A stretch of 40,994 nt of DNA from Bacteroidales bacterium (lineage in GTDB: Bacteria > Bacteroidota > Bacteroidia > Bacteroidales > FEN-979): assembly GCA_003142515.1 (NCBI GenBank), contig PLMO01000166.1, positions 34,776 through 75,769 of the forward strand. The letters run 5' to 3'. Both the position numbers and the translations under genes were made by a program. Under the pieces are notes generated by a model that saw only the letters and a list, made by a program, of their open reading frames with translations, searched no databases and had not been told where the DNA came from. Positions 14,001-40,994 of the stretch are shown here, in pieces. Position 1 is the stretch's first letter. Every line of letters starts with the position of its first letter.

Positions 14001-14014
14001 ACAAATTCTGAATC

Positions 14015-16461: not shown

Positions 16462-16541
16462 TGAAGTTAATTTTAATTGTCAATCGAGGAATCGGATCTT
16501 TTGATCCTTAACATTTTGAAACATCTAAATCAGGAGGATAT

Positions 16542-19512: not shown

Positions 19513-19523
19513 AAAAGGCAACC

Positions 19524-21709: not shown

Positions 21710-21831
21710 TCTGTTGTTATTCCATTTTTAATAAATTTGGCCATTAATAAATATCCGGGGATCAAAGAATTGATCACTGAGATACGCATATTGGCCCGAT
21801 TCATCTTAACACGGGAAGAAGAGATTAATAT

Positions 21832-23172: not shown

Positions 23173-23301
23173 GTTCCAGGGGTTATTTGAACATCCACAA
23201 AGGAAATACATCAGTGATAAGATAGATAGGGGAAAAGTAATTATTAATCCCGATCAGGGTAACACATAAAGTTGCTTTATTAAAATTAAATATCTAAAGA
23301 T

Positions 23302-23688: not shown

Positions 23689-23709
23689 TCCTTCCATTTC
23701 AATAATTTT

Positions 23710-24063: not shown

Positions 24064-24096
24064 AGAAGAACGGGGTATCTGAAAAAAGGATAGTTG

Positions 24097-24594: not shown

Positions 24595-25371
24595 ATGAAG
24601 ACCATTGTTATCTGTCCTCCAATAATTGAATATTTCGCGGTTGACGATATAAAACGTCATAATATCAATTAACCTACTGATTCTACTAAAGCATTTCAGC
24701 AGCATGAAGAATTGAGATCTGTCATTTCTGAATCAGGATGCGAAGTGATTCGGATTCCTGAACTGGCCTGCCATCCAAATTCCGTTTTTACACGCGACAC
24801 TTCTTTGGTGACACCAAAAGGATACGTCAGATTAAGAATGGGACTGGAATCAAGAAGAGGGGAAGAAGATTGGATGGCAAACCATTTAGAATCACTTGGG
24901 ATAAAAAAAGCAGGAAATATCATAGGAAATGGCACGGTAGAAGGCGGAGATGTGATTTTAACTGGCTTCATTGCTTTTGTGGGCCTTTCGAAGAGAACAA
25001 ATGAGGAGGGCGTTAACCTGCTATCAGCAATTTTAAACGCTATGAATTTCGAGGTTAGGTCTATCGAAGTTCCTCAACCATTTTTGCATCTGGGCGGTGC
25101 CATGAGTATTCTTTCTTCTAATGATGTTTTGTGTTGTCAGGGGATTTTCTCAATTGATTTCTTCAATGGTTTTAGTCGAATTGAAGTACCAAGAGATAGC
25201 TTTGTTTTCGGTAATGTAATATCTCTGGGGAATCATGAAGTTATTGCAGAAAATACGAATACGTTTGCGATTGATATTCTTAAACAAAATGGATATCATA
25301 TCCATTCAATCGATTTTTCAGAGTTCATCAAAGGAACTGGTGGTCTATCTTGTTTGATTTTACCGGTTTAA
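24595..25371 (+). pseudogene. DDAH-like amidinohydrolase interrupted by one in-frame stop
   Basis: An ATG at 24595 begins a frame reading MKTIVICPPIIEYFAVDDIK that reaches a TAA at 24670-24672. Without a shift it then continues as PTDSTKAFQQHEEL and on to 25371. The downstream 219 residues match dimethylargininase/arginine deiminase-type enzymes: ACHPNSVFTRDTSLV, TVEGGDVIL, VGLSKRTNEEGVN, FLHLGGAMS and the catalytic cysteine in GGLSC at the end. A CAA to TAA change would explain the stop. Restart at TTG 24712 would lose about 39 residues. It is therefore probably a recent pseudogene, unless the stop is read through or is a sequence error. The gene ends four bases before a DsrE-like gene fragment. 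Confidence 0.7.
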
Positions 25372-25374
25372 AGG

Positions 25375-25464
25375 CCTGAAGACCTGCGTCCGGGGGTTAT
25401 CATCGCCGAAAAAGACAAATTTTTCAACTTCACGAAAGGCAGGATTGTGACATTGGATTATTAA
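25375..25464 (+). pseudogene. 29-codon 3' fragment of a DsrE-like gene
   Basis: The fragment reads PEDLRPGVIIAEKDKFFNFT and then KGRIVTLDY before its stop. It matches the end of the ORF at 35529-35741 at 25 of 29 residues and about 82% of bases, with mostly synonymous changes. It starts right after the DDAH-like gene stop and has no start of its own. It is the remnant of a second member of this family whose front part was deleted. Confidence 0.75.
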
Positions 25465-25567
25465 TGTTTTTCCTGTCGTTGAATCGGAATATTGAATAAG
25501 TTGTTGGTTTAGCCAGATAATTTAGAACTCTGAGAATGACTTCATGAATTGAGAACGCGAACTTCAA

Positions 25568-26443
25568 TCAAGTTGATAAACCAACATTACTCCTGACCCA
25601 ACATGGCTTATCGGAAGGACTTTTAATTTTTTTAATGTGGTTATTCATGATCGTTTTACTAATCGCAAAACCCAATGCCGAGCCAACAAACACATCTGAA
25701 AACCAGTGGTCATTCTCATAGACTCGTGAAGTGGCAGTAAGCCCTGCCAAGGTATAGCAAACGATGGGAACCTATATTGTTTTACTATATGCTGTTGCCA
25801 GCACTGTTGCAATTGCAAAAACATTGGTGGAATGCCCTGAGGGAAATGAGCTGTTAATGGTCAGGTGAAACGGACCTTCCCAAATATTCGGATTGGGCGG
25901 AATATCATTATACGGTCGGTGACGTTGTATCAGCTGTTTCATTAGGGTGGAAAAAACGTTGGCTAAAATATAAGCTTCTACCCCCTTTAAGGCCGTGTAA
26001 CGTGCTTTATCATTTTTCGTTATTGCGCCCACTCCATAAAGTATGCCCATTGCCGGCAGAGCATATAATCCGCTGCCCAGTCGTTCTAATCCATATTTTG
26101 AGACGTTGCCCATAAAAGGATTCTGATTCTTCTCAACTACTATCTGAATCCACGCATCCTGTGTAAATAACACAGCTGTTACGACGACTACTCCGGAAAA
26201 CGCAATCCATTGATAATTATTCCAACGGTAAGGAGAGATAGCTATGTCTCGCGTATCTGTAGGCCATGATTTAAAATAGGCTTTGTCCGGGACGGTTGAA
26301 AGAGTCCGTTCATCTTTGGGGATATCACTCAGAGGTCTGTTAGGTATTGTATCCTCCTGTGCAAATGCATTGAATTGAATCACCATCAGTAACCCGATCA
26401 AATACAATGGGTGATTTTTCATTAAGGTCAGCATAATTGCCAA
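25568..26443 (-). pseudogene. PAP2-family phosphatase interrupted by an in-frame TAG
   Basis: On the minus strand a signal sequence (ending FNAFAQ) and several membrane helices are followed by the phosphatase motifs. Motif 1 is KQLIQRHRP (KX6RP) and motif 2 is PSGHS. After AYSKTI comes a TAG at 25772-25774, and the same frame continues VPIVCYTLAGLTATSRVYEN to motif 3 SRVYENDHWFSD (SRX5HX3D) and a final helix. Family members often have Trp where the stop lies, so a TGG to TAG change is likely. Without readthrough the product loses the catalytic histidine of motif 3. The enzyme would have hydrolysed a lipid phosphate or pyrophosphate. An alternative ATG lies at 26422. Confidence 0.78.
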
Positions 26444-26650
26444 ATTCGGGTTTCAATTATTTCAATTTAAAATAAGTATTGTTAAAATAGCACATGTTAG
26501 GATAGCTTCGATAACAAATTTTTTTCTTTCTCGTTCGGTTTGTTTCAATATTTTAACTCTAATTAAGATGAATTAAATCCCAAAAAGTTGGTTACATGAC
26601 AAATCTGTTTTGTTTTTATGAAGAAAGTCGGTATTCGTGGATAAAAAACA

Positions 26651-26681
26651 GCGTTCATGGGAACGATTTTACCATGAACGC
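26651..26681 (-). terminator. Rho-independent terminator after the PepSY-like gene
   Basis: On the minus strand GCGTTCATGG pairs perfectly with CCATGAACGC over an 11-base loop and is followed by TGTTTTTTAT. It lies 24 bases past the PepSY-like stop codon. The 200 bases beyond it (26444-26650) are A+T-rich and show no gene. Confidence 0.8.
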
Positions 26682-26704
26682 CGGCATTAATATGAAAAGA
26701 TCGG

Positions 26705-27166
26705 TTAGTCTTTCTCTTCGCTTTTATCTTTCACAGGTTCTTTTTTTATCAGAGTCCCCTCTGCATTTATGGCGACTTCCATCTTAGTTTTGCCGGTCTG
26801 GACTTCTAGCTCAAACACTTTCCCTTTGGCAGTTTCGGATACTTCTGATTTTAACAGTTTGTAACCAGGAAATTCCTTGACTAACGTTTTTGTAACAGCA
26901 ACAGGAATTTCCTTTTCGCCGATTTTGTATTCAGTTTCAAGCCAGGTGCCATTGGCATTGAAATTCGCAGAATACTCCTTGTTGTTCATGGTAAATTCTG
27001 CCTCCCACTCAGTAGCATTTTCCTTACCCCATTTTACTTTCTGGGCTCCTTTAAATTTCTGATCAAAATTGGTTTTTACCTTGGCAGGTAAATCTTTGGC
27101 ATTTTGTGCACATGCTGTTACACTGATTAGGGTTGCAGCGGCAATAACAAGAACTATATTTTTCAT
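26705..27166 (-). CDS. Exported PepSY-like (DUF2874-type) protein
   Basis: This 153-residue protein starts with a signal sequence ending VTACAQ, which fits a lipoprotein box with C19. Two PepSY-like beta-alpha repeats follow: LPAKVKTNFDQKFKGAQKVKWGKE...EWEAEFTMNNKEYSANFNANGTW and the second from VTKTLVKEFPGYKLLKSEVSE to NAEGTLIKKE. These small periplasmic proteins are abundant in Bacteroidota; relatives bind or inhibit, but no clear activity is known. The gene stands alone with its own terminator (26651-26681). The neighbouring 214 bases upstream (27167-27380) hold no recognisable gene. Confidence 0.88.
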   Translation of the reverse strand: MKNIVLVIAAATLISVTACAQNAKDLPAKVKTNFDQKFKGAQKVKWGKENATEWEAEFTMNNKEYSANFNANGTWLETEYKIGEKEIPVAVTKTLVKEFPGYKLLKSEVSETAKGKVFELEVQTGKTKMEVAINAEGTLIKKEPVKDKSEEKD

Positions 27167-27380
27167 CTTTAAAGAATTTTATTTGTTAAAACTGGTGCAA
27201 AAATAAATGGGAAATCTAAAGGAATATTTAAGTTGAAATTAATTCCACTTCAATTGATAAACTATGTCCATTCAATAAATTCTGAGAAATGAAATTTATA
27301 AGCAACCAGAGTTATACCAATAAAAATATGGTTCTTCGCAAAGATGCTACCAACCATTACAAAGTTAGTATCCTAGACTA

Positions 27381-28133
27381 TTATTTCAAATATGATTCAT
27401 AAAGTTTGTTATACTTGACAAAAACATAAAAAGCAGAAAATAGAGACCACACAAAACCCGGATACCCGTTTAGAAAATTACATCTGACAAAATATTGTCT
27501 AAAAAATTCAAATGGAAATCGAAGCATAGGCCTAAATTTACCAACCTTCATCCCTTTTTTTATTGCTTCATGTTTATAAATGCTACTGTATTCATTGAAT
27601 TTATTAAAGTAATGATGAATATCCGTATAACTATAATGCAATATTTCATTTCTTAGTTTTGTTAATGTTCCTTCAACTTTCACACTCTCATGTAATTTTA
27701 GTGTGTTAAAATCACCTTTATTTTTATTGAAAAGCCTTAGGTGCGGAAACTTATTTTCAGACCCATAGTTGAAAACTCTATTCATGAAAACTAATGTAAT
27801 AGGCACATAGAATCCATCTGTTGCAATAATTGGAAGCGATAGAATAGCAATAATTTCATCGCGCAAGGTATTAGTTACAACTTCGTCAGCATCTAAAGAA
27901 AAAATCCAATCGTATGAAGCTTTTTCAACGGCAAATTTCTTTTGTGCTCCATAACCTAAAAATGGCTGAACATAAACCTTGCAATTTTTGTATTCCTCGC
28001 AAATATCTATTGTCCTATCAGTACTATTCGAATCAATAATTATTATTTCGTCACTCCATTTAATAGATTCAAGAGTCGGACGAATACGATTTTCTTCATT
28101 AAAAGTAATAATAACAACACTAATTTTGTGCAT
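27381..28133 (-). CDS. Family 2 glycosyltransferase (WaaE/KdtX-like)
   Basis: This 250-residue protein has the GT-A fold: ISVVIITFNEENRIRPTLESI, EIIIIDSNSTDRT and the metal-binding DADE (residues 81-84) in WIFSLDADEVV. RLFNKNKGDFNTLKLHESVKVEG follows, and the C-terminus has aromatic helices (FEFFRQYFVRCNFLNGYPGFVWSLFSAFYVF). This layout is typical of lipopolysaccharide-core beta-1,4-glucosyltransferases such as WaaE. It lies 46 bases after the RND permease gene on the same strand but is unrelated in function and is richer in A+T, so it may have been acquired separately. The sugar and acceptor are unknown. Confidence 0.88.
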   Translation of the reverse strand: MHKISVVIITFNEENRIRPTLESIKWSDEIIIIDSNSTDRTIDICEEYKNCKVYVQPFLGYGAQKKFAVEKASYDWIFSLDADEVVTNTLRDEIIAILSLPIIATDGFYVPITLVFMNRVFNYGSENKFPHLRLFNKNKGDFNTLKLHESVKVEGTLTKLRNEILHYSYTDIHHYFNKFNEYSSIYKHEAIKKGMKVGKFRPMLRFPFEFFRQYFVRCNFLNGYPGFVWSLFSAFYVFVKYNKLYESYLK

Positions 28134-28179
28134 ATAAAAACAGAGTATTATATGACTTGAACAACCCCTCTCATAAGAC

Positions 28180-31100
28180 TCAAAGGTTTTTGCCAGCTGG
28201 AATTCTGATAAACGTTTTTAGTAAGCCTGGTAACACGATCAATAGCAATGGCAATGCGACAATGAAACCGCCGATGACTGCAATGGCCAATGGTTGGTGC
28301 ATTTGTGCTCCGGTTCCAATGCCTAATGCCAGGGGTAAAAGCGCAGCGATGGCTCCTGAAGCGGTCATTAAGTTAGGTCGTAATCGTGTCGAAACTGCCA
28401 ATACAAGTGCACTGCTACCTCCGTTTTTCACTTCCGATAAAAACTGATAGATCGTAAAAATTGAATTTTCACCAATGATCCCAATGATCATGATTAACCC
28501 GGTGTAACTGCCAACATTCAACGGTGTATTGGTTAGATATAATGCAATTACACTTCCTGATATACCTAACATGCTGATAAAAAGTACGATCAACGAAAAT
28601 TTCAAGTTCTTAAACATGAACAGAACCACGGTAAATACCAGCAAGCCACCGGAAATAAGGATTTTCAGCAATTCAGCAAAGGAATTCTGTTGCTCAGCAT
28701 AGGAGCCACCATATACGATCTGGTAAGATGACGGTAAACTTATATTCTTCATTTTATGCTGGATATCTTTCATCACGCTGCCCAGATCCCTGTTATTCAA
28801 TCTTGCTGTTACCACTCCCATGGATTGAAGGTTTTCTCTTTGGATTTCTGAAACCCCGCTTTGTATGGTAAAATCTGCAAACTCGGATAAAGGAAAATAA
28901 TCTCCGGCAGCGGTACATATTGATACTTGCCTTAAGTCATTCAGTGGTGTTTTATCATTTACAGGGAAGATCAGGCGGATATTGGTCAGCTGCTCCTTTT
29001 CGGGAACTGTTCCCACAACAGTGCCTTCCAAAAAAGAACTCGACTGCTCTTGCAACAGTGAAGAGGTAAGCCCGAATTGTTTCATTTTGCCTTCTTTTGG
29101 CAGGATTTTCATTACCGGGCCGATTACAACAATACCATTAAAAACATCGGCTGTGCCTTTTACTGTTTGGATGCTGTCAGCTACTTGTTTTGATAACCGG
29201 AGCAATTTATCGTGATCATTTCCAAAAATTTTTATTTCAACAGGTTGCACGCTGCTCATTAAATCACCAAGCATATCGGTGATTACCTGCCCAAAATCAA
29301 CGGTTAGTACAGGGAGTACACTTTCCACCTTTTTACGGATTTCATCCGTTACCTGTTCTGTAGTTCTCTTTCTTTTTTTGTGCAATTCAAGTAAATAATC
29401 TCCCCGGTTTGGTTCGGTTATAAAGAAACCCATTTGGGTTCCCGTGCGTCGCGAATAGGTCTTCACTTCAGGGATTGTTTCAATAATCTTATCTACTTCA
29501 TTCAACATCCGGTCAGTCTCTTCCAGTGATGTACCTGCCGGGCTGTTATAATCCAACACGATCGACCCTTCGTCCATGTCTGGGAGGAAGCCGGTTTTCA
29601 ACTTTGGAAGAATAAACAGGATGGAAATACTCAATAGAATAACGATTACAAAACTGATATATGGCTTTTTAATAAAGAATTCAAGCCACTTGTATCGTGG
29701 AATGCGAAATGGTTGAGTTTTCTTCGAAAAAGCTTTGTCATTCGAAAAAAGTAGGTAAATAACCGGCAAACCAAGCCAGGTTATAAGAAAGGAACAGATC
29801 AGCGTAATGATCATTGTTTCCGTCAGAATCTTAAAATAAGCGCCGGCAACACCTGTCATTAACTCAAATGGAATGAGGATAACAATGGTACTTAAGGAGG
29901 AACTCACCATGGCAGGAAAAAGAAACTGGATGGCTTTTCCCACAAGTTCCTTTGACTTCCGCTGAGGATAGGCCTCATGGGTGCGGTGAATTTGCTCCAC
30001 AACAATGATGGCATCGTCAATGATCAGACCGATAGCCGCTGCAATAGCGCCGATGGCCATGATATTAAAATCGTACCCGATAGAGATCAGTACAACGAAC
30101 GTGAGCGCCAGGGTTAATGGGATGGTGATCAGAAGTACTGAACTGGCTTTGAATGACCGCAGAAATACGATGACAACCAAGATTGCCAGCAATAATCCGA
30201 TCCAAAGTACATCGATAATGCTGCTGATGCTGTTTTGTACAAATTCGGCCTGGTTGTAATAGGGTTTCAAAACTACGCCTTTGGGCAATATTTGATTGAG
30301 TTCTTTAGCATTTTCAGATACTTGAGCTGCTACATCAATCAAGTTGCTGTTGGGTTGCTTTACAATAGCTACCAATGGAAAATCTTTGCCATCGGCTTTG
30401 ATTTTCACGTATTCATTTTGTTCTGAAATCTCCACCGAAGCGATATCCGAAATTTTGATCTGTCGCGCAGCATCGTTAAAAAGAACAAGGTTTTCGAGTT
30501 GTTCTTTATTCGAAATTGAAGCATCGGTCACAGTAAGATAAAGTCGCTTATAATCAATTGTAAAACCGTTTGATTTGATGAAGCCGGTTTGTTTAACTGC
30601 GTTTGCGATATCCTGCGTACTGATCTTTAATAGCTTTAATTTCTGAAGGTCAGGAATTATCCTGTATTCCTTGGTTTTGCCTCCGATTACCTGAACTGCA
30701 GACACGCCGGCTATTCTCGAAAAATAGGGCTTCACAGTATATTCGGCAATCAATTTCAATTCTACCTGGGTTTTCGTATCCGATTGGAGAGAATACCCCA
30801 TTACGGGTAAAATGGAGGGATTCATTTTTTCGATCGTAATTTCCACGTCGGGAGGCAAAGCATTCCTTATCTGAGTAATCCGTGATTCAACCTGTTGTTT
30901 GTCAAGGTCAATATCGGAACCCCAATCCATGAAAGCTGAAATTTCACAGCTCCCCATACTGGTTGTACTGCGAATAAGTTTCAGGTTCTCAACCTGTTTG
31001 ATGGCATTTTCGAGTGGTTTCGTAACTGAAACCATCATTTTGTCTACAGGTTGCTCTCCATGGTTGGCAATGATCTTAATTTTCGGGAAAGTAATATTGG

Positions 31101-31206
31101 GGAACAGGGACGTTTTCATATTTTTATACGATAACGCACCTCCTATTAAAATTAATAATAAGATGACTGCCACCGGGCTTTTAAACCGTACAAATATCTT
31201 TTCCAT
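28180..31206 (-). CDS. RND efflux transporter permease
   Basis: This 1008-residue protein has the RND plan: helix 1 near residues 11-27, a large periplasmic loop, helices 2-6, a second loop and helices 8-12. The fourth helix reads AAAIGLIIDDAIIVVEQIH (D about 397-398). The paired aspartates are typical of hydrophobe/amphiphile exporters, whereas metal exporters such as CusA have a single Asp there. It is encoded with an exported adaptor and an outer-membrane channel, and all three follow a two-component system. It should pump a small toxic compound from the periplasm using the proton gradient. The substrate is unknown. Confidence 0.92.
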   Translation of the reverse strand: MEKIFVRFKSPVAVILLLILIGGALSYKNMKTSLFPNITFPKIKIIANHGEQPVDKMMVSVTKPLENAIKQVENLKLIRSTTSMGSCEISAFMDWGSDIDLDKQQVESRITQIRNALPPDVEITIEKMNPSILPVMGYSLQSDTKTQVELKLIAEYTVKPYFSRIAGVSAVQVIGGKTKEYRIIPDLQKLKLLKISTQDIANAVKQTGFIKSNGFTIDYKRLYLTVTDASISNKEQLENLVLFNDAARQIKISDIASVEISEQNEYVKIKADGKDFPLVAIVKQPNSNLIDVAAQVSENAKELNQILPKGVVLKPYYNQAEFVQNSISSIIDVLWIGLLLAILVVIVFLRSFKASSVLLITIPLTLALTFVVLISIGYDFNIMAIGAIAAAIGLIIDDAIIVVEQIHRTHEAYPQRKSKELVGKAIQFLFPAMVSSSLSTIVILIPFELMTGVAGAYFKILTETMIITLICSFLITWLGLPVIYLLFSNDKAFSKKTQPFRIPRYKWLEFFIKKPYISFVIVILLSISILFILPKLKTGFLPDMDEGSIVLDYNSPAGTSLEETDRMLNEVDKIIETIPEVKTYSRRTGTQMGFFITEPNRGDYLLELHKKRKRTTEQVTDEIRKKVESVLPVLTVDFGQVITDMLGDLMSSVQPVEIKIFGNDHDKLLRLSKQVADSIQTVKGTADVFNGIVVIGPVMKILPKEGKMKQFGLTSSLLQEQSSSFLEGTVVGTVPEKEQLTNIRLIFPVNDKTPLNDLRQVSICTAAGDYFPLSEFADFTIQSGVSEIQRENLQSMGVVTARLNNRDLGSVMKDIQHKMKNISLPSSYQIVYGGSYAEQQNSFAELLKILISGGLLVFTVVLFMFKNLKFSLIVLFISMLGISGSVIALYLTNTPLNVGSYTGLIMIIGIIGENSIFTIYQFLSEVKNGGSSALVLAVSTRLRPNLMTASGAIAALLPLALGIGTGAQMHQPLAIAVIGGFIVALPLLLIVLPGLLKTFIRIPAGKNL

Positions 31207-31207
31207 G

Positions 31208-32134
31208 CTATTTTACGATTTTTACAACAGCGCCATCCGGTAAACCATAAGCTCCTTCAATAATTACAGGATCATTGATCGATATATCTTTGGAAATTAC
31301 TTCCACCATCCGGGTATTTTCAATTCCTGTTTTTACAGGTACTTTGACGGCAATGCTATCATGCAGGATTTTCATCACCCAGAATTCCTGTTGTGTTTCG
31401 TTGGTCAACAGCGCTTTTTTAGGGATCAGCAAGGCTTTTGAATGATTTAACCCAACGAATTGAACAATCACATTTAAATTCTCAGGCACCTGGCGGTTAC
31501 TTCGGACTTTAATCAGGATAATCTGCGTTTGTGATGTTTCATTTATTAAAGGCATGATCTTATAAATGTTCCCATCAAGGAAAGTGCTGTCGGGCAATAC
31601 TATTCTACATTCCATATTAATTTTGAGCCACCGGTTGTATTTAAATGGAACATTAACTTGTACCCTCATTTCTGTGTTTTCAACGATCGTGCAAAGCTGG
31701 CTGCCTTCAGACACATACATTCCCGTTGAATTGATATTCAAATCGCTTATGATTCCATCGGAAGGTGCAACTACTCTGATAATGCCGCTTTTTGAAGAGG
31801 AAATTGCGGGATCCAAACCTGAATTTTCCAGGGCTTTATTCTCTTTCGTTTGAATTTCGAAAAGAAGGTCGTTTTTTTTCACCATATCCCCATACTGGAT
31901 ACACACTTCTTTTAGATAGCCCGGGATGGATGAGATGACTGCATTTTTCTTCAGAAAAACTGATTTGCCGTTTAAACTGATGATTTCATCAATACTGCCA
32001 TTTAATACCGTCGTGGTTTTAACCGGTATTTTTTGGTTCGCGGTATTCTCCGGAATTTCTGTCTTTTTGATTCTACAGGAGACAAATGAAGTTAGCAATA
32101 TTCCTATATAACAAAGCGTTAACGCTGATTTCAT
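31208..32134 (-). CDS. RND periplasmic adaptor (membrane fusion) lipoprotein
   Basis: This 308-residue protein has a signal sequence with a possible lipobox cysteine (C20, TSFVSC). A biotinyl-lipoyl-like half motif follows (ISLNGKSVFLKKNAVISSIPGYLKEVCIQYGDMVKKNDLLFEI) and its partner (GIIRVVAPSDGIISDLNINSTGMYVSEGSQLCTI). Beta-barrel and membrane-proximal domains complete it. The short helical hairpin between the two half motifs suggests contact with TolC is made by few residues. Its stop lies one base before the permease start, so the two genes are coupled. It bridges the permease and the TolC-like channel. Confidence 0.9.
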   Translation of the reverse strand: MKSALTLCYIGILLTSFVSCRIKKTEIPENTANQKIPVKTTTVLNGSIDEIISLNGKSVFLKKNAVISSIPGYLKEVCIQYGDMVKKNDLLFEIQTKENKALENSGLDPAISSSKSGIIRVVAPSDGIISDLNINSTGMYVSEGSQLCTIVENTEMRVQVNVPFKYNRWLKINMECRIVLPDSTFLDGNIYKIMPLINETSQTQIILIKVRSNRQVPENLNVIVQFVGLNHSKALLIPKKALLTNETQQEFWVMKILHDSIAVKVPVKTGIENTRMVEVISKDISINDPVIIEGAYGLPDGAVVKIVK

Positions 32135-32144
32135 ATTAATTTTA

Positions 32145-33425
32145 TTAGTAGTTCCAATAATTAAAACTGATTATAAGCGCCTGCTTTTCAAGATCAAGGA
32201 GTAACTTATCCTGTTTTTTTAATGCAAAGTCCTTAACTATGTTTTTATAATCTATCACAGAAATTTCACCCTGAGACAATTGGGCATGATAAACTGTCAA
32301 TAATTGATCGTATTTGCTTATTTGATTTTCAGTAAGCATAATTCTGTTTCCCAATGAAGTAAGCTGGCTAAGAATATTGTTTTTGTTGACCTGCTGTTGA
32401 GTCAGAAAATTTTGTCTCTCAAAATCTATCGTTTGCATATTTATATATGTTCTTTGATTTTGTATTTTCTTTTGGTTACCATCAAAGATATTCCAGCTAA
32501 ATGTAATCCCGGTACTGAAACCAAGCCGGTCGAATGATGGCAGATACACAGCATTTAAACCGGCATCCGCAAACAAATTAACCTGCGGCTTGTACTTCAG
32601 GTTACTGATTTTTTGTTCTGCATTAATATTCAAACTGTCAAGACGAAAAGAATCTAAAAATCCAGAAGAAACCGGCTTATTGTTATTTAACTTCAAATCA
32701 AGTTCTTGTAAATCAACCGTGGTGGTGTCATTTATACCACACAGGAGATTCAAATCATAAAGGTTTGTTTTGTACTCTGAAATTGACGACGCGTAAAACA
32801 ATCCATAGTTCTCATATTCAATTTGCATCAACATCAAATCAGATTGTTTATAGATAGCATTTTCCACCAGTTTTTGCATTATCAGCAACTGGCCTTCCAA
32901 CTCTTTCATTAGTTGTTTGTTAATATCTGACAAACGCTTCGCTTTAAGACAGAGAATATATTGATGATCGACGATTTTTTCCAATTCATGAATGGTCAGC
33001 GAAATACGGTTATCATTTATCTGACGGGCAATGTCAGCTTTGCTTGCGTATGTTTTTAAGCTACCCCCTGTGAACAAAGGCTGTTTAAGTAAAATAACCG
33101 ATTGATATTGCCCCCCATTTGTAATCGCCATGTCGTCGCCCGCGTAGTTTGTTGCACCATTAGAAACCAGCTCGAACCGATATGTATTGTTATCATGTGA
33201 AATAATCGGGGCAAATAAAACACTTGCATCTAAATTGACCTCAGGTTTTGACAGAATGCTTTTCATCTGTTCCAGATCAAGACCGATGATCTTATTTTCA
33301 TTTTTGCTTTGGTTAATGAGTGGGCTGAATGATTTAGCCTTTTCTAAATAAAAATCAAGGCTCCTCTTTTGAGCCTGGGTTGTATTTAGAAGGAATATTA
33401 TTAGAAACAATGTTAGTATTCGCAT
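32145..33425 (-). CDS. TolC-like outer membrane efflux protein
   Basis: This 426-residue protein has a signal peptide (ending TTQAQ). Long heptad-rich helices and a repeated architecture with beta segments follow (LLKQPLFTGGSLKTYASKADIARQ; later FSWNIFDGNQKKIQNQRTYINMQTIDFERQ), as in TolC-family channels. It lies ten bases ahead of the adaptor gene and four bases past the sensor kinase gene, so it is the first structural gene of the efflux operon. The TolC order (channel, adaptor, pump) matches many Bacteroidota RND operons. Confidence 0.88.
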   Translation of the reverse strand: MRILTLFLIIFLLNTTQAQKRSLDFYLEKAKSFSPLINQSKNENKIIGLDLEQMKSILSKPEVNLDASVLFAPIISHDNNTYRFELVSNGATNYAGDDMAITNGGQYQSVILLKQPLFTGGSLKTYASKADIARQINDNRISLTIHELEKIVDHQYILCLKAKRLSDINKQLMKELEGQLLIMQKLVENAIYKQSDLMLMQIEYENYGLFYASSISEYKTNLYDLNLLCGINDTTTVDLQELDLKLNNNKPVSSGFLDSFRLDSLNINAEQKISNLKYKPQVNLFADAGLNAVYLPSFDRLGFSTGITFSWNIFDGNQKKIQNQRTYINMQTIDFERQNFLTQQQVNKNNILSQLTSLGNRIMLTENQISKYDQLLTVYHAQLSQGEISVIDYKNIVKDFALKKQDKLLLDLEKQALIISFNYWNY

Positions 33426-33428
33426 AAT

Positions 33429-34679
33429 TTATAATGTTGCAATTTTTTGACTGATGGTAAAACAATGAAATTCATTTTTTGAATAATGAATCTCCAATTG
33501 ATGTGTATCGCAAATCTGTTTAACAATGGCTAATCCCAACCCATACGATTTTGAATTCCCTTTCACAAACCGGTTGAAGATGGTTTCATCAGTCAGTTCA
33601 TTGACTGTGCCTGTGTTACAAATGGTCATTTCATTCTGATCGACTGTAATTCTGATGGTACCGTTATCAATATTGTGATTTACTGCATTTGATAACAGGT
33701 TGTTTATCAGTATCCCGGCCAGGTTAAGGTTCATTTTCACCTGGAATACGGATTGGGATATAAATTCAATTTGAATATTTTTCTCCCTGAGCAAAGGGTC
33801 GAATTCCTGAATTTTATTTTCTATCAATTCGTTTAATACAATGAAATCGCTGGCTGCGAATTGGTTGTTTTCTATTTTAGTCAGCAGCAACAGGTTGTGG
33901 TTGAGTACAGTCAGCCGTTGGATGGCATTGATTGCAATTACTACTTTTTTGAAGGATTCTTCGCTTAACTTCTGTTGCAGGGTTTCTTCGAGGTTAAGAG
34001 ATGCAATGGTGAGCGGTGATTGAATTTCATGCGATGCATTCTCCGTAAATTCTTTCAGCGAGAGAAAATCTTTTTTAAGTTTATCAGTCAGATTTTTAAT
34101 AACCTGATTTAAACGGTCAAACTCATCAATGTTCGATGCACGAAGTTGAATTGCCTTATTCTCCTTGAAATTAAAATTCTCAATCTCCTTCAGGTTGTAT
34201 TCGAACCTGTGCCAGATCGTTTTATTCAACCTTCTTGTAATGAGATATGAAATCACAAATGCGATTAAAAGCAGAATGAAAATAACGACAGCAATGCTTA
34301 TCGCCAGGTCTTCACTTTCCACCGAGGCTTCCCTTATTTTTATCAGGTAGTAGGCGTTGTTCGCCTGAATGATCTCTGAATATTCAATATAAACTTCTTC
34401 CTCATTCTCCTTCGCGTTAAACAAGATGACATCTTTAAATTGTTTGTTCTTACCCGACTTTCCACTCAATTGAATTATCTCGATGAATGGTTTAAGTTCA
34501 GGTATGCGATTCGTTTCAGCGATTTGTTTTTTAATAAAAGCTCCTGTTACCATCAGGTTCTCCTTAATGTTTTCCTTTATGATCGTTTTCAGGACAAAAT
34601 AGGTTGAAAAAGAGATCACTAGCAGTATAACACTGAAAAGAATCAGGTAATTGCGGTTAATTTTTGTCAGGAATTTCAT
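33429..34679 (-). CDS. Sensor histidine kinase of the RND efflux operon
   Basis: This 416-residue protein has two membrane helices (about residues 11-30 and 125-147) bracketing a periplasmic domain of about 95 residues. A HAMP-like segment follows, with a phosphoacceptor box ENASHEIQSPLTIA (H about 216), N box NLLSNAVNHN and G box YGLGLAIVKQI. The DxGxG part of the ATPase domain is altered: ITVDQNEMTICNTGTVNE replaces the usual DNGxGI, as seen in some kinases of this type. The start overlaps the stop of the response regulator by four bases. It likely senses the compound expelled by the efflux pump. Confidence 0.9.
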   Translation of the reverse strand: MKFLTKINRNYLILFSVILLVISFSTYFVLKTIIKENIKENLMVTGAFIKKQIAETNRIPELKPFIEIIQLSGKSGKNKQFKDVILFNAKENEEEVYIEYSEIIQANNAYYLIKIREASVESEDLAISIAVVIFILLLIAFVISYLITRRLNKTIWHRFEYNLKEIENFNFKENKAIQLRASNIDEFDRLNQVIKNLTDKLKKDFLSLKEFTENASHEIQSPLTIASLNLEETLQQKLSEESFKKVVIAINAIQRLTVLNHNLLLLTKIENNQFAASDFIVLNELIENKIQEFDPLLREKNIQIEFISQSVFQVKMNLNLAGILINNLLSNAVNHNIDNGTIRITVDQNEMTICNTGTVNELTDETIFNRFVKGNSKSYGLGLAIVKQICDTHQLEIHYSKNEFHCFTISQKIATL

Positions 34680-35353
34680 TGATCGGTAAATTTATAACCC
34701 ATTCCATATAGTGTCGTGATATAGTCAGCTCCACCGGCTGCTTTAATTTTTTTTCTGATATTATTCAAATGCGTATAAATGAAATCGTAAGAATCAGTAA
34801 GATCAATGTTGTCCTCCCAAAGGTGCTCGGCAATAGCCTCTTTGGTCAGCACCCGGTTTTGGTTTATGATCAGGTATAAAAGAATATCGTATTCCTTTTT
34901 AGTGAGTGTAAGCTGTTTATCATGGATGGCAATGGTTTTACTATCGGTGTTAATTGATATTTCATTAAAGACCAAAATGTTTGACCCTGTATAATTGAGC
35001 CGGCGCAACAACGCTTTTACACGGGAGTTTAATTCTGTCAGTTTGAATGGTTTGGTTATATAATCATCAGCGCCCTCATCGAGTCCGATAATTTTATCAT
35101 CCAGAGAATCCCTAGCCGAAAGAATAATGATACCGGCCTTTAGATTGTATTTTTTGATTGATTTCAGCAATTCAAGCCCGTTCCCATCGGGCAAGGTAAT
35201 ATCCAACAGAATGATATCATATTCGTAGATGGTTATTTTTTCGTATGCTTTAGCAAAATTCTCAGCTAATTCACAGATATAATTCTCTTTGGTGAGATAA
35301 TTACTGATAGCTATCAGTAGTTCAATTTCATCTTCAACGATCAGGATTTTCAT
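34676..35353 (-). CDS. OmpR-type response regulator of the RND efflux operon
   Basis: This 225-residue protein has a receiver domain (acidic E7-D8, phosphoacceptor D51 in ILLDITLPDG, K101 in ITKPFKL). A winged-helix DNA-binding domain follows (LTLTKKEYDILLYLIINQNRVLTKEAIAEHLWED, ending IRKKIKAAGGADYITTLYGMGYKF). It heads the run of regulator, kinase, TolC-like channel, adaptor and pump, so it probably activates that operon. The gene upstream is 175 bases away and points in the opposite direction, so the operon promoter is likely within 35354-35528. Confidence 0.94.
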   Translation of the reverse strand: MKILIVEDEIELLIAISNYLTKENYICELAENFAKAYEKITIYEYDIILLDITLPDGNGLELLKSIKKYNLKAGIIILSARDSLDDKIIGLDEGADDYITKPFKLTELNSRVKALLRRLNYTGSNILVFNEISINTDSKTIAIHDKQLTLTKKEYDILLYLIINQNRVLTKEAIAEHLWEDNIDLTDSYDFIYTHLNNIRKKIKAAGGADYITTLYGMGYKFTDQ

Positions 35354-35528: not shown

Positions 35529-35741
35529 ATGTTTTTAAAGAAGATGAATTTTAAGGATTTCCCCACGTTGCATGAGTTGCTTGATCAGCTGGCCGATAAA
35601 AAGGTAACCATGATGGCCTGTCCTACCTGTATGAAAGTTGCTGGTTACAAGCCTGAAGACTTACGTTCGGGGATCATCATTGCCGAAAAGGAAAGATTCT
35701 TCAACTTCACAAAAGGCAGGATCGTGACGCTGGATTATTGA
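35529..35741 (+). pseudogene. DsrE-like C-terminal fragment, probably N-terminally truncated
   Basis: This 70-residue ORF reads MNFKDFPTLHELLDQLADKK, then VTMMACPTCMKVAGYKPEDL, and a C-terminal strand region ending GRIVTLDY. It looks like the second half of a DsrE-family protein, with the cysteine pair in ACPTC. The front part containing the first Rossmann-like strands is missing. An ATG exists, but a full-length gene would be expected to be about 110-120 residues. The last 29 codons are shared with the fragment at 25375-25464. It converges on the QmoC-like gene of the second Hdr locus. It may still encode a small protein; truncation is an inference from the family size. Confidence 0.6.
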
Positions 35742-35784: not shown

Positions 35785-36921
35785 TTAGGATGTTTGATGG
35801 GAATAATAGAAATAAAGGGCCAGCGGACGGTACAAAGCATGGGCAAATTTGGAGAATGCAAACAGGATGATCAGTTCCATAGATATTACAGTATGGACCA
35901 GAAAGACAACCTGGGTGCTAAGGTCATTCCATCCTGACATGACCGCTATCTCCAGCCAGAACCCGGTAAATCCTGCTATCCATAAAAATAAAAGAAAGGT
36001 CCAGTCAGCCAGTTTGATGTCTGCATAGCTTTTAGTTGGTTTGGTCAGCCGGTAAAAAACAGCCAGTGTCGTCCCGTATATCAGCAGGATACCGGTCAGT
36101 GTCCCAAGGATCCGTGAAGGCAGCCACATAATGGTGGCCGGATCTTTAAAGATAAAATCCAGGATGGTGGCAATCAGAAGCCCAATAAATCCCCACATGA
36201 TACTCCAATGCACAAACCACGGCTTTATCAGCCACAGCTTATGTTTCCAATAGGAATCATCTTCAGCATCGCAGGTTTGGTAGCGTTTCATCATAGCCAG
36301 TTCAAGGCTGACTTTCTTTAATGCAAGAATAGTCCTTGAAAACGAGAACTTCCTTGGAACAGTAGCAGGATCATATGCATCTTTTTTGAGCAGTCTTCTG
36401 GCCAATGTATAGATCCCCACAACGGCTGTAATACCAGTCAGAGCAAAAATCCCTAACCCCATGTTGTGGATCACCTCATAAGGAATATAAGTGAACAGCC
36501 ATCTGGCAATGATCTCTTCAGGTTTTATAGAAAGAAGCATCAATCCCAACAGCAAGGCGATCACCAGGGTGATAAAAATTGCCCACGGATTATTGGTAAA
36601 GATCAGCCGTGCCAGCCCTGTTTTCTCTGTATTGGCAATTGTGTACCTGCGTAAAGCCGCCATGTATTCGCCCGGGTAAGCCTGGCGTGGGCAGGATTCG
36701 GAACAGTCGCCGCAGGCATAGCACAGCCAGATCTCTTTGCTGTTTAAAATTTTTTCCTTTTCACCCAATAATCCATACCGGATAAACATCCTGGGGAAGT
36801 TGGCTTGCTGCTCCGACAGATTGCAGACTGCCGTGCAATTCCCGCAATTATAACAGGCATTGAAATGACTGGCGCCGTATTTTGAAATTTCTTTGGCAAA
36901 CTGCGGATTCAACTCACTCAT
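35785..36921 (-). CDS. QmoC-like fusion (HdrC ferredoxin domain plus membrane cytochrome b), second locus
   Basis: This 378-residue protein has two [4Fe-4S] motifs (CYNCGNCTAVC near residue 22, lacking the usual final proline; CYACGDCSESCPRQ near 67). Membrane helices follow with histidines PWFVHWSIMWGF and VFLVHTVISMEL, and the closing KFAHALYRPLALYFYY. It parallels the protein at 18355-19512 closely in plan, with the same KxAHxxYRPLAxYF ending. It is the last gene of the second Hdr-like operon. Its start overlaps the stop of the 101-residue small gene by four bases. It should pass electrons between HdrA flavins and menaquinone. Confidence 0.88.
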   Translation of the reverse strand: MSELNPQFAKEISKYGASHFNACYNCGNCTAVCNLSEQQANFPRMFIRYGLLGEKEKILNSKEIWLCYACGDCSESCPRQAYPGEYMAALRRYTIANTEKTGLARLIFTNNPWAIFITLVIALLLGLMLLSIKPEEIIARWLFTYIPYEVIHNMGLGIFALTGITAVVGIYTLARRLLKKDAYDPATVPRKFSFSRTILALKKVSLELAMMKRYQTCDAEDDSYWKHKLWLIKPWFVHWSIMWGFIGLLIATILDFIFKDPATIMWLPSRILGTLTGILLIYGTTLAVFYRLTKPTKSYADIKLADWTFLLFLWIAGFTGFWLEIAVMSGWNDLSTQVVFLVHTVISMELIILFAFSKFAHALYRPLALYFYYSHQTS

Positions 36922-37190
36922 TTTTCTTTCAGTTTATAAAAGTAATACTCATCCATGTCGTCCAGTTCTCCTGTTTCCACTTCATTATATTTACGCATGG
37001 TCATAACCACAAAAAGCACTTGGTCGGCCGGGATCCCGGTCTTTAATGCGATCCCGGGAATTGTCTCAGGCTGCTCTTTCAAGACCTGCCTTATCTGCTT
37101 TCTCAGTTGAAGATAATCCTTATGATGTTGTTTGACAGCATCTGGAATTATCCATTTTTGTTTGATGATTTCTATGGTCTTTCTATCCAT
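36918..37190 (-). CDS. Small unknown protein in the Qmo-like operon
   Basis: This protein of about 90 residues is charged and helical, with a stretch like a winged helix: LQLRKQIRQVLKEQPETIPGIALKTGIPADQVLFVVMTMRKYNEV, ending DDMDEYYFYKLKEK. I took the ATG at 37190; a GTG at 37223 would add 11 residues and overlap the HdrA gene by eight bases. No cysteines are present, so it carries no cluster. Its position between the QmoB-like and QmoC-like genes, with a four-base overlap into the latter, suggests it belongs to the complex or regulates it. I do not recognise its family with confidence. Confidence 0.65.
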   Translation of the reverse strand: MDRKTIEIIKQKWIIPDAVKQHHKDYLQLRKQIRQVLKEQPETIPGIALKTGIPADQVLFVVMTMRKYNEVETGELDDMDEYYFYKLKEK

Positions 37191-37215
37191 GGATGAAGAA
37201 TATTTCTGATATCTT

Positions 37216-39165
37216 TTAACCACTCATTGCTTCAATCATGCTTCTGACCTCAGGGTTTGTATAACCCTTGATATCGATAGCTTCCGTCGGACAAACGGGG
37301 GTACACATCCCGCAACCCTTACAGTTTGATTCAATGATCCTGGCAACGGGTACCTTTTCTGTCTCTATTCTTTCAATCGCATCAAAAGGACAAGCTTCCA
37401 GGCATTTACCACACCATTCGCAGGCTGCCGGGTTCACAATTGCCAAAGTCGGTTCCAGCTTAATTTCTCCCTTATTAAGGATGGAATAGACTTTGGAGAC
37501 AGCTGCAAGTGCCGAGCTGGCTGATTCGGCTATATTCCTTGGTCCCTGGCAGCACCCTGCAATGACCAGACCGTCTATCATTGTTTCTACAGGTCGTAAT
37601 TTAGGATGGATTTCGTTATAAAAATGATCCTTTCCCAGAGGCACCTTAAGGATGCTGATCAACTCCGTATTTACACGGGGAACCATCCCGGTAATCAAAA
37701 CCACAAGGTCGGTCGTTACCGTGACTTCCATATGGGCAGTAAGCAGGTCGTTGACAGTTACTTTTATTGGGTTGTTCAGAACTTCTACAACAGGAGGGTC
37801 ATCTTCCACAAATTGCAGATAAACATCACCTGAAGTGGATGATTGTTCGTATAGTATTTCCTGTTTGCCGTAAGTCCTTATTCCTTTATTAATATGATAG
37901 ATAAAGGGGACCTTAAGTTCTTGCCTGAGTTGAATTGCAGCATGAATGGCGGATGTACAGCAATATCGGGCGCAATATTTATTTTCTCCGTCAATCTGTC
38001 GGCTGCCGACACAATAGATGAAGGCTACGCGTTCGATTTTTTTACCCCTGAACCGGAATTCCCCTTTGGTCAGATCGAGTAATCTTTTTAGTTGCTGAAA
38101 TGTAATTACATTCGGATGTTCCTGATAACCGAATTCCCCCTTTTTTGGTTCGTAAGGATTAAAACCGGTAGCCAGGAAGATGGACCCAACATGAATTTCT
38201 ATTATCCGGTACTGTTGGTCCAGACGTATTCCATGGCAATATTTCAAACACTCCTCACAACGTGTGCAAGCGGCCATATCAACAACTGGCATGGCCGGGA
38301 ATTCACTGCGATAATTAAAAAAAATGGCCTTCCGCTTTGTTAGATTAAAGTTAAACTCATCATCCACTTCAACCGGACAGGCTTCAATTGCTTTTTTAAA
38401 TGACTCCGGATCACAAGGTGGTTCAACATACCGGGGTTGAATTTTCACCTGGATATTGAAATTTCCAATACTTCCTTTTGAGGCAATAATATTTGCGCCT
38501 GTATAGACCCGGATGGATTCACGTTTTTTCACTTCATGATACAGTTCGGTGATGATCTCTTCCCCGGTCTGGTTTGTCATCGACATTTTTCCCCATTGTG
38601 CAACCCTTCCCCCGACAAAATGCTCCCGTTCTATGAGATGAACATTGACACCCAGGTCGGCCAGTTCAATGGCTGCTCTCATTCCAGCCACTCCGGCGCC
38701 TACAATTGCAACTGAATTCTCGGCAGGAATCGTCATAGGTGTCAATGGCTCGGAAAGGCTCACTTTGGCAATGCCTGCACGGATCAAATGAATGGCTTTC
38801 AAGGTTGCCTGGGCAGGTTTGTCTGAGTGAGCCCATGAATCCTGTTCCCGGATGTTGACCTGGACATAATTGTAAGGATTCAATCCCCCCCGTTCGGCAA
38901 CACCACGGAATGTGTTCAGATGAAGTTTCGGGGAGCAGGACGCCACGACGATAGCATCCAGGGGTTCGTTCTGAATGTCTGCGACAATTTCCTTTTGTGC
39001 CGAATCGGCACAGGCAAACATGGTGATCTTTGCAAGTGACACCCCTTTTCCCCTGCTGATCTCTTCCCGGACTTTTTCCACATCCACATAATCCGATATA
39101 TTTGATCCGCACTGACAGATGTAAACGCCAATCCTTTTCCCTGTAAAGTTTGGTTCTTTTATCAT
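37216..39165 (-). CDS. HdrA-like flavoprotein, QmoB-like (type II), second locus
   Basis: This 649-residue protein has a full N-terminal cysteine domain (GVYICQCGSNI, MFACADSAQKEI, VVASCSPKLHL, NIREQDSWAH) and FAD binding VAIVGAGVAGMRAAIELADLG near residue 151. A degenerate inserted ferredoxin keeps only one cluster motif (ACTRCEECLKYC). CARYCCTSAIHAA is kept, and two C-terminal [4Fe-4S] motifs follow (CEWCGKCLEACP, CKGCGMCTPVCP). It has no TLDCSAC motif. QmoB of sulfate reducers is an HdrA fused to MvhD; here the MvhD-like part is a separate gene three cistrons away. It ends one base before the QmoA-like gene start region, in a tightly packed operon. Confidence 0.9.
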   Translation of the reverse strand: MIKEPNFTGKRIGVYICQCGSNISDYVDVEKVREEISRGKGVSLAKITMFACADSAQKEIVADIQNEPLDAIVVASCSPKLHLNTFRGVAERGGLNPYNYVQVNIREQDSWAHSDKPAQATLKAIHLIRAGIAKVSLSEPLTPMTIPAENSVAIVGAGVAGMRAAIELADLGVNVHLIEREHFVGGRVAQWGKMSMTNQTGEEIITELYHEVKKRESIRVYTGANIIASKGSIGNFNIQVKIQPRYVEPPCDPESFKKAIEACPVEVDDEFNFNLTKRKAIFFNYRSEFPAMPVVDMAACTRCEECLKYCHGIRLDQQYRIIEIHVGSIFLATGFNPYEPKKGEFGYQEHPNVITFQQLKRLLDLTKGEFRFRGKKIERVAFIYCVGSRQIDGENKYCARYCCTSAIHAAIQLRQELKVPFIYHINKGIRTYGKQEILYEQSSTSGDVYLQFVEDDPPVVEVLNNPIKVTVNDLLTAHMEVTVTTDLVVLITGMVPRVNTELISILKVPLGKDHFYNEIHPKLRPVETMIDGLVIAGCCQGPRNIAESASSALAAVSKVYSILNKGEIKLEPTLAIVNPAACEWCGKCLEACPFDAIERIETEKVPVARIIESNCKGCGMCTPVCPTEAIDIKGYTNPEVRSMIEAMSG

Positions 39166-39166
39166 C

Positions 39167-40510
39167 TTATAAAGGCGTTGTGGCTTGGTGGGAAATGGAT
39201 GCCTGATGCTGTTTCATGTATTTGGCCGCCTGAGCAGCAGCTGCTCCCGCCGAAAGAATTGAATCCGGTATATCCATTGGGCCTGTCGACGTCCCGGCGA
39301 TGAACACGCCTGGCAGGTTGGATTTGAACGGATCAGTCATTTCATTCGGCTGATTGTAAAAATTGAATGGATCAAGCTTAAACTTTTCATCTCCGAACAA
39401 CTTTTCAATCCCCATATTGGGTAAAATCCCGACGGAAAGTACAACCATATCATGCTGTGTTTCCTTCACTTGCCCGGAAGCGATATCCTCATAGCGGAGC
39501 ATAAGGTCTCCATTTTCCAGTTCTTTTATCCGTCCGATTTTGCCCTTGATAAATTGCACATCCATCATTTTAGCTTGCTGATAAAATTCATCGAACCCTT
39601 TTCCAAATGCCCTGACATGCAGGAAATAGATCGTAACATCGGCCATGGGAACTGCTCCCAGGATCAATTGAGCTTGTTTAATGGAATACATGCAGCAGAT
39701 CTGCGAGCAAATCGGATTACCCACTGTGGCATCACGCGATCCGGCACAAAGCACATAAGCGATTTTGTCCGGTACTTTCCCGTCGCCGGGCCTCAGAACC
39801 GTATTGAATGGACGCGTTGGTACAAGTTGCCTTTCCATCTGCATGGCGGTGACCACATTTTTTAATTTTCCACCACCATACCTTGTAATCCGATCGGGAT
39901 CAAAAAGTTTGAATCCTGTTGCGACAATGATGCTATTGACCGTAATCTCCGTTATCCGGGTTTCCTGTGTAAAGTCAATAGCTCCGGGACCGCACGCTTT
40001 CTCACAAGCGCCGCATAGGATACAGTTATCCAGATCAATCGCGGCAATGCGGGGACTGGCAATGCTGAAGGGGATATAGGCCGCCTTACGACCAACCAGA
40101 TTATACTGGTACTCATCTTTCACAACCACAGGGCAGGCTTCTTCACAATCCTGGCAACCGGTGCAGAGGGAATCAATGACGTACCTCGGCCTTTGTTCAA
40201 TGACCGCCCTGTAAGAGCCATTCTCATCCCTTGAAATATGTTTAACCTCGCTATGGTTAAGGATCTCTATATTTGGATGGCGTGCTGTTTCGGAAACTTT
40301 TGGAGTAGTAATGCATGCCGAACAGTCGAGGGTAGGAAACACCTTACTCAGGTGGATCATCCGTCCGCCGATGGACAGGTCCTTTTCCACAATCATAACG
40401 TGAAACCCCATATGGGCAAGGTTGAGAGCAGATTCAAGACCTGCAATCCCACCACCTATCACAAGGGCATCCAATTCGTTTAAGGAAGAATTCCTGAAAT
40501 CATCACTCAT
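39167..40510 (-). CDS. HdrA-like flavoprotein, QmoA-like (type I), second locus
   Basis: This 447-residue protein starts directly with FAD binding (ALVIGGGIAGLESALNLAHMG near residue 16), with no N-terminal cysteine domain. It has the HdrA motif TLDCSACITTPKV and an inserted ferredoxin (CTGCQDCEEACPVVV, CILCGACEKACGPGAI). CSQICCMYSIKQA and a C-terminal FAD-contacting GVFIAGTSTGPMDIPDSI follow. The C-terminal ferredoxin is absent. This domain set equals that of QmoA and matches the type I HdrA at 16542-18371 except for the N-terminal remnant. It lies three bases after the MvhD-like gene. Confidence 0.9.
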   Translation of the reverse strand: MSDDFRNSSLNELDALVIGGGIAGLESALNLAHMGFHVMIVEKDLSIGGRMIHLSKVFPTLDCSACITTPKVSETARHPNIEILNHSEVKHISRDENGSYRAVIEQRPRYVIDSLCTGCQDCEEACPVVVKDEYQYNLVGRKAAYIPFSIASPRIAAIDLDNCILCGACEKACGPGAIDFTQETRITEITVNSIIVATGFKLFDPDRITRYGGGKLKNVVTAMQMERQLVPTRPFNTVLRPGDGKVPDKIAYVLCAGSRDATVGNPICSQICCMYSIKQAQLILGAVPMADVTIYFLHVRAFGKGFDEFYQQAKMMDVQFIKGKIGRIKELENGDLMLRYEDIASGQVKETQHDMVVLSVGILPNMGIEKLFGDEKFKLDPFNFYNQPNEMTDPFKSNLPGVFIAGTSTGPMDIPDSILSAGAAAAQAAKYMKQHQASISHQATTPL

Positions 40511-40513
40511 AAT

Positions 40514-40918
40514 TTATGTCGCATTGGTTGTTTTGTCAGCAAGTTCTCCAGCAAACAGCCTCATCTGGTTGACAAAAAGTTCTGCACATACCGAACAAAC
40601 GGCGGCCATTTTCAGATTTTCAGTCGGAATTCCTTTTTCCCGCATCATAACATGGGTCCTCTCGACAATCTTTGCGGTCTTTTCTATGCAGGTTTCGCCG
40701 TAAGGACAGTCAGATCCGTCAGCTGCTATAAAAACTCCCGCAAATCCGCATTCAAATGCATGCATGATCCAGCTTGGGCGAACCGAACTGGAACAGGGAA
40801 CAACAACCGCATGAACTGTAGGTGGATAGTGCAGTTTCATCAACCCTGCCAGATCCAGGGCCGGATCGGAAATCTTTTCCGTAGAAAAAACGAGTATTTT
40901 TGGAGGATCCTTCTCCAT
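40514..40918 (-). CDS. Divergent MvhD-like subunit lacking the first cysteine pair
   Basis: This 134-residue protein follows the MvhD fold: KILVFSTEKISDPALDLAGLMKLHYPPTVHAVVVPCSSSVRP, then AFECGFAGVFIAADGSDCPYGETC. In place of CNWC it has STEK, and the CGCHPGDCHY segment has become AADGSDCPYGETC. Remaining cysteines (VPCSS, SDCPYGETC, AVCSVC) could not bind the usual [2Fe-2S] cluster in the same way. I took the ATG at 40918 because the fold begins there; the frame is open to the window edge, so a longer N-terminus or further genes upstream cannot be excluded. It heads the visible part of the second Hdr-like operon. Confidence 0.78.
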   Translation of the reverse strand: MEKDPPKILVFSTEKISDPALDLAGLMKLHYPPTVHAVVVPCSSSVRPSWIMHAFECGFAGVFIAADGSDCPYGETCIEKTAKIVERTHVMMREKGIPTENLKMAAVCSVCAELFVNQMRLFAGELADKTTNAT

Positions 40919-40994
40919 TTCCGTCAGATAGATGTTATTTCTTAATATACAACCGGAAATAACCGTCTTCAAGAATATCCCCGAGATATTCAAA

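Follow-up and report, generated by a model that had tools for sequence, protein, structure and literature searches.

The stretch of DNA considered here (the window, 40,994 nucleotides) covers bases 34776-75769 of a 94.5 kb contig from a metagenome-assembled genome (MAG) of the Bacteroidales (2.86 Mb, 85% complete), whose gene inventories were obtained by targeted searches of the assembly. Close to one end of the window lies a compact operon that encodes a complex resembling the quinone-linked Qmo complexes, together with the sulfur carriers TusA and DsrE. An earlier sequence-only reading had described five packed open reading frames at this locus, and their places and minus-strand orientation are confirmed, with family scans in agreement. 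The operon genes present in the window are as follows:

40935..40994, minus strand: 3' end of tusA, truncated where the window stops at a scaffold gap of 62 N (L001:71-132)
40514..40918, minus strand: FlpD/MvhD-like protein (Pfam FlpD, 87.7 bits)
39167..40510, minus strand: QmoA-like truncated HdrA (HdrA-type in the family scan; ligand comparison)
37216..39165, minus strand: QmoB-like HdrA (HdrA-type in the family scan; own clade in the HdrA-family tree)
36918..37223, minus strand: small winged-helix protein of 101 aa (BLASTP, AlphaFold, Foldseek)
35785..36921, minus strand: QmoC-like HdrC/cytochrome-b fusion (NCBIfam qmoC, 190.3 bits; cut-off 300)

The junctions between FlpD, QmoA, QmoB, the small protein and QmoC measure +3, +1, -8 and -4 bases, and flpD begins 16 bases after tusA. 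The list of partners given by the sequence-only reading was incomplete, as the tusA end (40994-40935) and a dsrE gene past the gap were missed. On the minus strand, the last 60 bases of the window read FEYLGDILEDGYFRLYIKK-stop, the final 19 residues of TusA and its stop codon, and this peptide is identical to the TusA C-terminus of the closest relative, L003 (QmoB 91% identical). In L003, dsrE, tusA and flpD are contiguous without Ns, and tusA is whole, between the other two. Beyond the 62-N gap the contig of the window carries dsrE and a divergent Crp/Fnr-type regulator. The tusA end within the window and dsrE past the gap thus give the operon DsrE-TusA-FlpD-QmoA-QmoB-wHTH-QmoC, where wHTH is the small winged-helix protein.

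Distribution of the cassette and its paralogue

A scan of named genomes with a QmoB alignment left 80 loci, nearly all from Bacteroidota MAGs, with the remainder from Aminicenantes, Krumholzibacteriota and one genome labelled Chlorobiota. The order DsrE/DsrE2-TusA-FlpD-QmoA-QmoB-wHTH-QmoC is invariant across loci with enough flanking sequence. TusA stands directly before FlpD, accompanied by a DsrE-type protein, in all 55 loci with more than 4 kb upstream (DsrE in 43, DsrE2 in 20, some with both), and 40 of these also carry the divergent Crp/Fnr regulator. The winged helix and QmoC are likewise found in 59/59 loci with enough downstream sequence. The same gene arrangement is seen again in other genomes, in the 80 loci as well as in further QmoB loci from genomes of the same order (L102-L130), and so it is not due to chance. 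Counted at about 45% identity or more, the cassette is present in 53 of 295 genomes of the order. A tusA gene exceeds the cut-off in 51 of these 53 genomes vs 70 of the 242 others (Fisher p = 5e-21). In 45 of 55 loci of the order a tusA on the same strand is found upstream of qmoB, mostly 1.7-2.0 kb away; among the loci without it, several are near a contig start and one is the window's own gap. A search of named plasmid references for Qmo returned distant HdrA-type matches only.

The genome contains a second, paralogous cassette (L001:11244-18387, contig C144), 12 kb upstream of the first and about 11-18 kb past the end of the window, which holds the sole complete TusA domain found in this genome:

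L001:17842-18387: paralogous DsrE2
L001:17578-17829: paralogous TusA
L001:17047-17445: paralogous FlpD
L001:14365-17050: paralogous QmoA (2 N inside)
L001:12358-14361: paralogous QmoB with fused winged helix
L001:11244-12371: paralogous QmoC

The paralogous QmoA has a GltD/NfnB-type module inserted in its ferredoxin region, and the closest PDB matches of this module are the GltD-like parts of a molybdopterin oxidoreductase and of a formate dehydrogenase subunit, together with NfnA and NfnI. The same fusion is present in L078, L080 and L081, and six further genomes may have it as well, judging by their wider tusA-qmoB spacing (3.2-3.5 kb). Given its likeness to GltD and NfnB, the module would tie the complex to NAD(P)H in the versions that carry it.

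Subunit architecture and relation to known systems

The putative ligands and active-site residues are strongly conserved. In FlpD, the cysteines C42, C71, C77, C108 and C111 are invariant in 66 of 66 sequences. The locus's own TusA is sequenced only in part, and the family assignment was tested on homologues: the TusA of L005 scores 81 bits with Pfam PF01206, and the Cys of the CPxP motif is kept in 48/48 sequences. Alignments also retain the active-site cysteines of DsrE (Cys97, 48/48) and DsrE2 (Cys140, 20/20), and the iron-sulfur (Fe-S) ligands are conserved at 100% in QmoA and QmoC and at 92-100% in QmoB. Compared with solved HdrA structures (5odc, 8rvu), QmoA has the FAD fold, two inserted [4Fe-4S] motifs and the HdrA CxxC...C..CC set, without the N- and C-terminal Fe-S domains. 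QmoB keeps the N-terminal Fe-S domain and a C-terminal dicluster ferredoxin and lacks the HdrA Cys194/Cys197 pair. QmoC joins an HdrC-type dicluster domain to a cytochrome-b-type membrane domain, whose best fold matches, though weak, are NarI-type. Its residues C217, H238 and H361 are invariant and H343 is conserved at 92%; the conserved His and Cys are common to canonical QmoC, and the protein may be a quinone-interacting cytochrome b. The complex predicted from these sequences is built like a Qmo, since QmoA and QmoB of Chlorobi are closely similar in their split and QmoC shares its His and Cys.

The fifth component had been called a small unknown protein by the sequence-only reading. Its presence stands; the label 'unknown' does not, as BLASTP aligns 65 aa of it at 43% identity with the C-terminal end of QmoB2, the paralogous QmoB, and its AlphaFold model (predicted local distance difference test, pLDDT, 86) is a winged helix. 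The nearest folds in Foldseek are ArsR/MarR-type winged helices, none past E 0.001, and the alignment contains no conserved Cys. L078, L080, L081 and the paralogous cassette have the winged helix fused to the C-terminus of QmoB, and the small protein is therefore probably a subunit and not a regulator.

Among the nearest known systems is the Apr-linked QmoABC type I (Desulfovibrio, Archaeoglobus, Chlorobi). It has a closely similar split into a truncated HdrA (QmoA) and an HdrA without Cys194/197 (QmoB), and its HdrC/cytochrome-b fusion shares the conserved His and Cys with QmoC of the cassette. However, FlpD is fused to QmoB in type I and separate in the cassette, which also differs in its extra winged-helix subunit, its invariant DsrE-TusA and its lack of aprBA/sat. 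The sequence-only reading had noted that no aprBA, sat or dsrAB gene lies in the window, which is correct, and that aprBA/sat upstream would make the locus an ordinary Qmo; AprA, Sat and DsrA were not found in a targeted search of the whole 85%-complete assembly. As a positive control, AprA exceeds the cut-off in 12 of 396 genomes of the phylum, most of which have aprA next to qmo genes, while the sole match in this genome (G000) reaches 20 bits. Against the curated qmoC equivalog cut-off of 300 bits, QmoC of the window (190), of L005 (165) and of the paralogue (193) all fall below, whereas a Chlorobi control passes with 497 bits. In phylogenetic trees, QmoA, QmoB and QmoC of the cassette each form a clade apart from the Apr-linked Qmo of Chlorobi, and joining the two clades is rejected by the approximately unbiased (AU) test for QmoA (p = 0.016) and QmoB (p = 0.033), a result weakened by long branches. 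With Apr, Sat and Dsr absent, separate clades and QmoC below its cut-off, the cassette does not belong to QmoABC type I. An ordinary Apr-linked Qmo would now require aprBA/sat to reside in the missing 15% of the genome, for which incompleteness leaves room; however, the rarity of AprA in the phylum, the tree positions, the QmoC score and the invariant TusA/DsrE where AprBA would stand bring this explanation close to refuted. The view of the sequence-only reading that the locus is a quinone-type Hdr/Qmo module is supported to this extent. One locus of the same phylum but another family (L096, G358) carries Sat-AprBA followed by QmoC and two dsrAB-like genes, with neither QmoA nor QmoB in this stretch, an unusual arrangement for an Apr-containing genome.

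Other systems share part of these features. Type II Qmo (Vulcanisaeta, Ammonifex) has QmoAB that stand nearer to HdrA than to type I and is also reported without Dsr and Apr, with its function open (PMC10504309, available text). The comparison with the cassette is by description only, and the available text mentions no DsrE-TusA cassette for type II (PMC10504309). In the sHdr system an HdrA-type enzyme is likewise served by TusA/DsrE2 carriers, but the cassette lacks HdrB and has the QmoC membrane subunit; HdrB1/B2, by which sHdr is recognised, is absent between the cassette genes in all 80 loci. The YTD cluster and DsrEFH type II combine tusA with dsrE-like genes in sulfur-disproportionating or -oxidising bacteria, and in archaea dsrEFH type II occurs near qmoAB (PMC12998232, PMC13293266). 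The cassette differs in its Qmo-like core and in the absence of a recognised DsrF/DsrH partner. YedE (PF04143), the transporter encoded next to tusA and dsrE-like genes in a YTD cluster, was not found in this genome by family search, and a YedE-type gene occurs in only 9/80 loci, so that YedE/YTD was rejected as a constant part of the cassette. In the literature searched, with most subscription papers outside it, no dsrE-tusA-qmo cassette of Bacteroidota is described, and YTD/DsrEFH type II and type II Qmo come nearest.

The hydrogenase locus and other neighbours

The window contains a further locus with related subunits, and a gene remnant beside the cassette:

13575-21275: hydrogenase-HdrA-QmoC locus, order FlpD-S-L-HdrA-QmoC-HdrA
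35529..35741, plus strand: lipoprotein-type DsrE2 remnant, C-terminal 67 residues only, outside the operon (Pfam DrsE_2, 34 bits)

The sequence-only reading saw the same plan in the hydrogenase locus and the cassette. FlpD, HdrA and QmoC-type subunits do occur in both, but the hydrogenase locus follows its own order, includes [NiFe] subunits, has no TusA/DsrE in its operon, and its HdrAs lie outside both cassette clades. The reported distance of 14.5 kb between the two is real here and shrinks to 3.8 kb in L003, so most of it is a local difference. Among the 80 loci, L003 alone has a hydrogenase-type locus within the examined flanks, and the link is therefore lineage-specific at most. Between the hydrogenase locus and the cassette, an RND-type efflux operon block (25000-35350; TolC-like protein, 1008-aa pump, two-component system) is present here and not in L003. 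Downstream of the hydrogenase locus, 21320-24516 encodes a response regulator, a histidine kinase, a 128-aa fragment of a TauE-type permease and a pair of small DsrE/F-like proteins, of which one has a signal peptide.

The DsrE2 remnant matches residues 94-160 of the DsrE2 of L028 (160 aa) at 84% identity, and no counterpart of the first 93 residues was found. L066, L074, L076 and L077, which for the most part are labelled Paludibacter or similar, have a gene for a DsrE2 protein (158-209 aa) placed between those for QmoA and QmoB, and the L077 protein has a lipoprotein-type signal; the window sequence is a remnant of a gene of this kind. Beside the cassette, a sulfur-related gene island (L001:1396-7886) encodes a MetY-type enzyme, an Mrp/ApbC ATPase, a CGGC-domain protein, NifX-type small proteins, HdrC and HdrB, and the MetY-Mrp-CGGC part is kept in L003. 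Elsewhere in the genome, L134:519-7162 (contig C157) holds a separate HdrCBA-FlpD-Flx-like locus in which HdrB is split into two open reading frames and HdrC contains Ns.

A possible role in persulfide-quinone electron transfer

Because DsrE and TusA always adjoin the Qmo-like genes and sulfate-reduction genes are absent, the cassette points to an undescribed route of electron exchange between protein-bound sulfur and the membrane quinone pool. On balance, it somewhat probably encodes a menaquinone-linked Hdr/Qmo-type complex that serves a DsrE/TusA persulfide relay, and not adenosine 5'-phosphosulfate (APS) reductase. FlpD, QmoA, QmoB, the winged-helix subunit and QmoC would form the membrane complex. 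Sulfane sulfur would be loaded as a persulfide on the single conserved Cys of DsrE (or DsrE2) and TusA, and TusA would dock to the FlpD/QmoAB part. Electrons could then run, in either direction, along a chain that links the persulfide to menaquinone through the flavins and Fe-S clusters of QmoA/QmoB and the HdrC-type clusters and b-type cytochrome of QmoC. FlpD may let in low-potential or NAD(P)H electrons at a second point, a part that the NfnB/GltD-like domain of QmoA would play in the second cassette. The reductive direction, from persulfide to sulfide as an electron sink, is on the whole the likelier, because FlpD and the NAD(P)H module would be inputs of low potential and because the genome has no other recognised reductase of sulfur compounds. 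A Mo-type polysulfide or thiosulfate reductase was considered and rejected, as the two PF00384 matches sit in clusters resembling NADH-linked formate dehydrogenases.

Several points weigh against this proposal. HdrB would supply a known heterodisulfide-reducing site, and the cassette has no subunit with an HdrB-type non-cubane cluster, nor was a persulfide-acting site recognised. HdrB is found elsewhere in the genome, but its presence is not associated with the cassette (20 of the 53 cassette genomes vs 70 of the 242 others). The HdrB/HdrC pair on the same contig (L001:6184-7886) was rejected as the missing catalytic partner, as it is not associated with the cassettes. Going by known potentials, menaquinol by itself donates poorly to persulfide, and the reductive direction therefore requires another donor of low potential. 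Cytochrome bd and two COX1-type oxidases are present in the genome as well, which makes the oxidative direction possible, and gene order does not prove physical interaction.

The same complex may run in reverse: it would oxidise sulfide or thiol-bound sulfur, leave persulfide on DsrE/TusA and hand the electrons on to menaquinone. It would thereby act in the cytoplasm as an oxidoreductase between sulfide or persulfide and quinone, and supply oxidases or fumarate reductase. Electron transfer from sulfide to menaquinone is downhill and the oxidases are at hand. Moreover, sulfur oxidisers are where TusA and DsrE proteins have been studied best (PMC13293266). However, rDsr is missing and the cassette lacks an sHdr-type HdrB, a low-potential donor is suggested by FlpD and the NAD(P)H-type insertion, and several relatives are MAGs labelled from sulfidic caves, hydrothermal sites or a sulfidic spring, so that this direction seems rather unlikely, if worth keeping in view. 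A role in biosynthesis and not in energy metabolism, in which the complex would set the reduction state of TusA-bound sulfur for tRNA thiolation, for cofactors or for sulfide destined for homocysteine/cysteine, is improbable: TusA is a biosynthetic carrier in E. coli, and a MetY-type sulfhydrylase, the Mrp/ApbC ATPase and the CGGC-domain protein stand beside the cassette here and in L003, but housekeeping does not usually involve a quinone-linked membrane complex of seven conserved genes, and this one is confined to 53/295 genomes of the order.

The electron exchange with the hydrogenase complex that the sequence-only reading proposed is not supported as stated. FlpD-type proteins do join hydrogenases to HdrA in methanogens, and the two loci are only 3.8 kb apart in L003; a general quinone/electron-donor module for the hydrogenase-Hdr-QmoC complex, with DsrE/TusA as incidental neighbours, is nevertheless very improbable, given that a hydrogenase lies nearby in 1/80 loci vs TusA and DsrE in 55/55. 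Exchange within this lineage is possible, in a system that in general does not depend on hydrogenase.

The proposed persulfide relay bears on how Qmo genes are read, as these are commonly taken as a marker of sulfate reduction or of APS-dependent sulfur oxidation. A widespread Qmo-like complex with DsrE-TusA and without APS reductase is likely to be misread by annotation pipelines. What Qmo complexes do outside Apr is called an open question in the available text of PMC10504309, and the invariant seven-gene cassette names a testable partner, the TusA persulfide. Tentatively, and with more doubt than confidence, the cassette may represent an undescribed quinone-linked persulfide reductase (sulfur respiration) of anaerobic Bacteroidota, Aminicenantes and Krumholzibacteriota, coupled to FlpD or NfnB-type NAD(P)H inputs by flavin-based bifurcation or confurcation on protein persulfides. 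The cassette could explain the use of zero-valent sulfur by many uncultured Bacteroidota of anoxic, sulfide-rich places.

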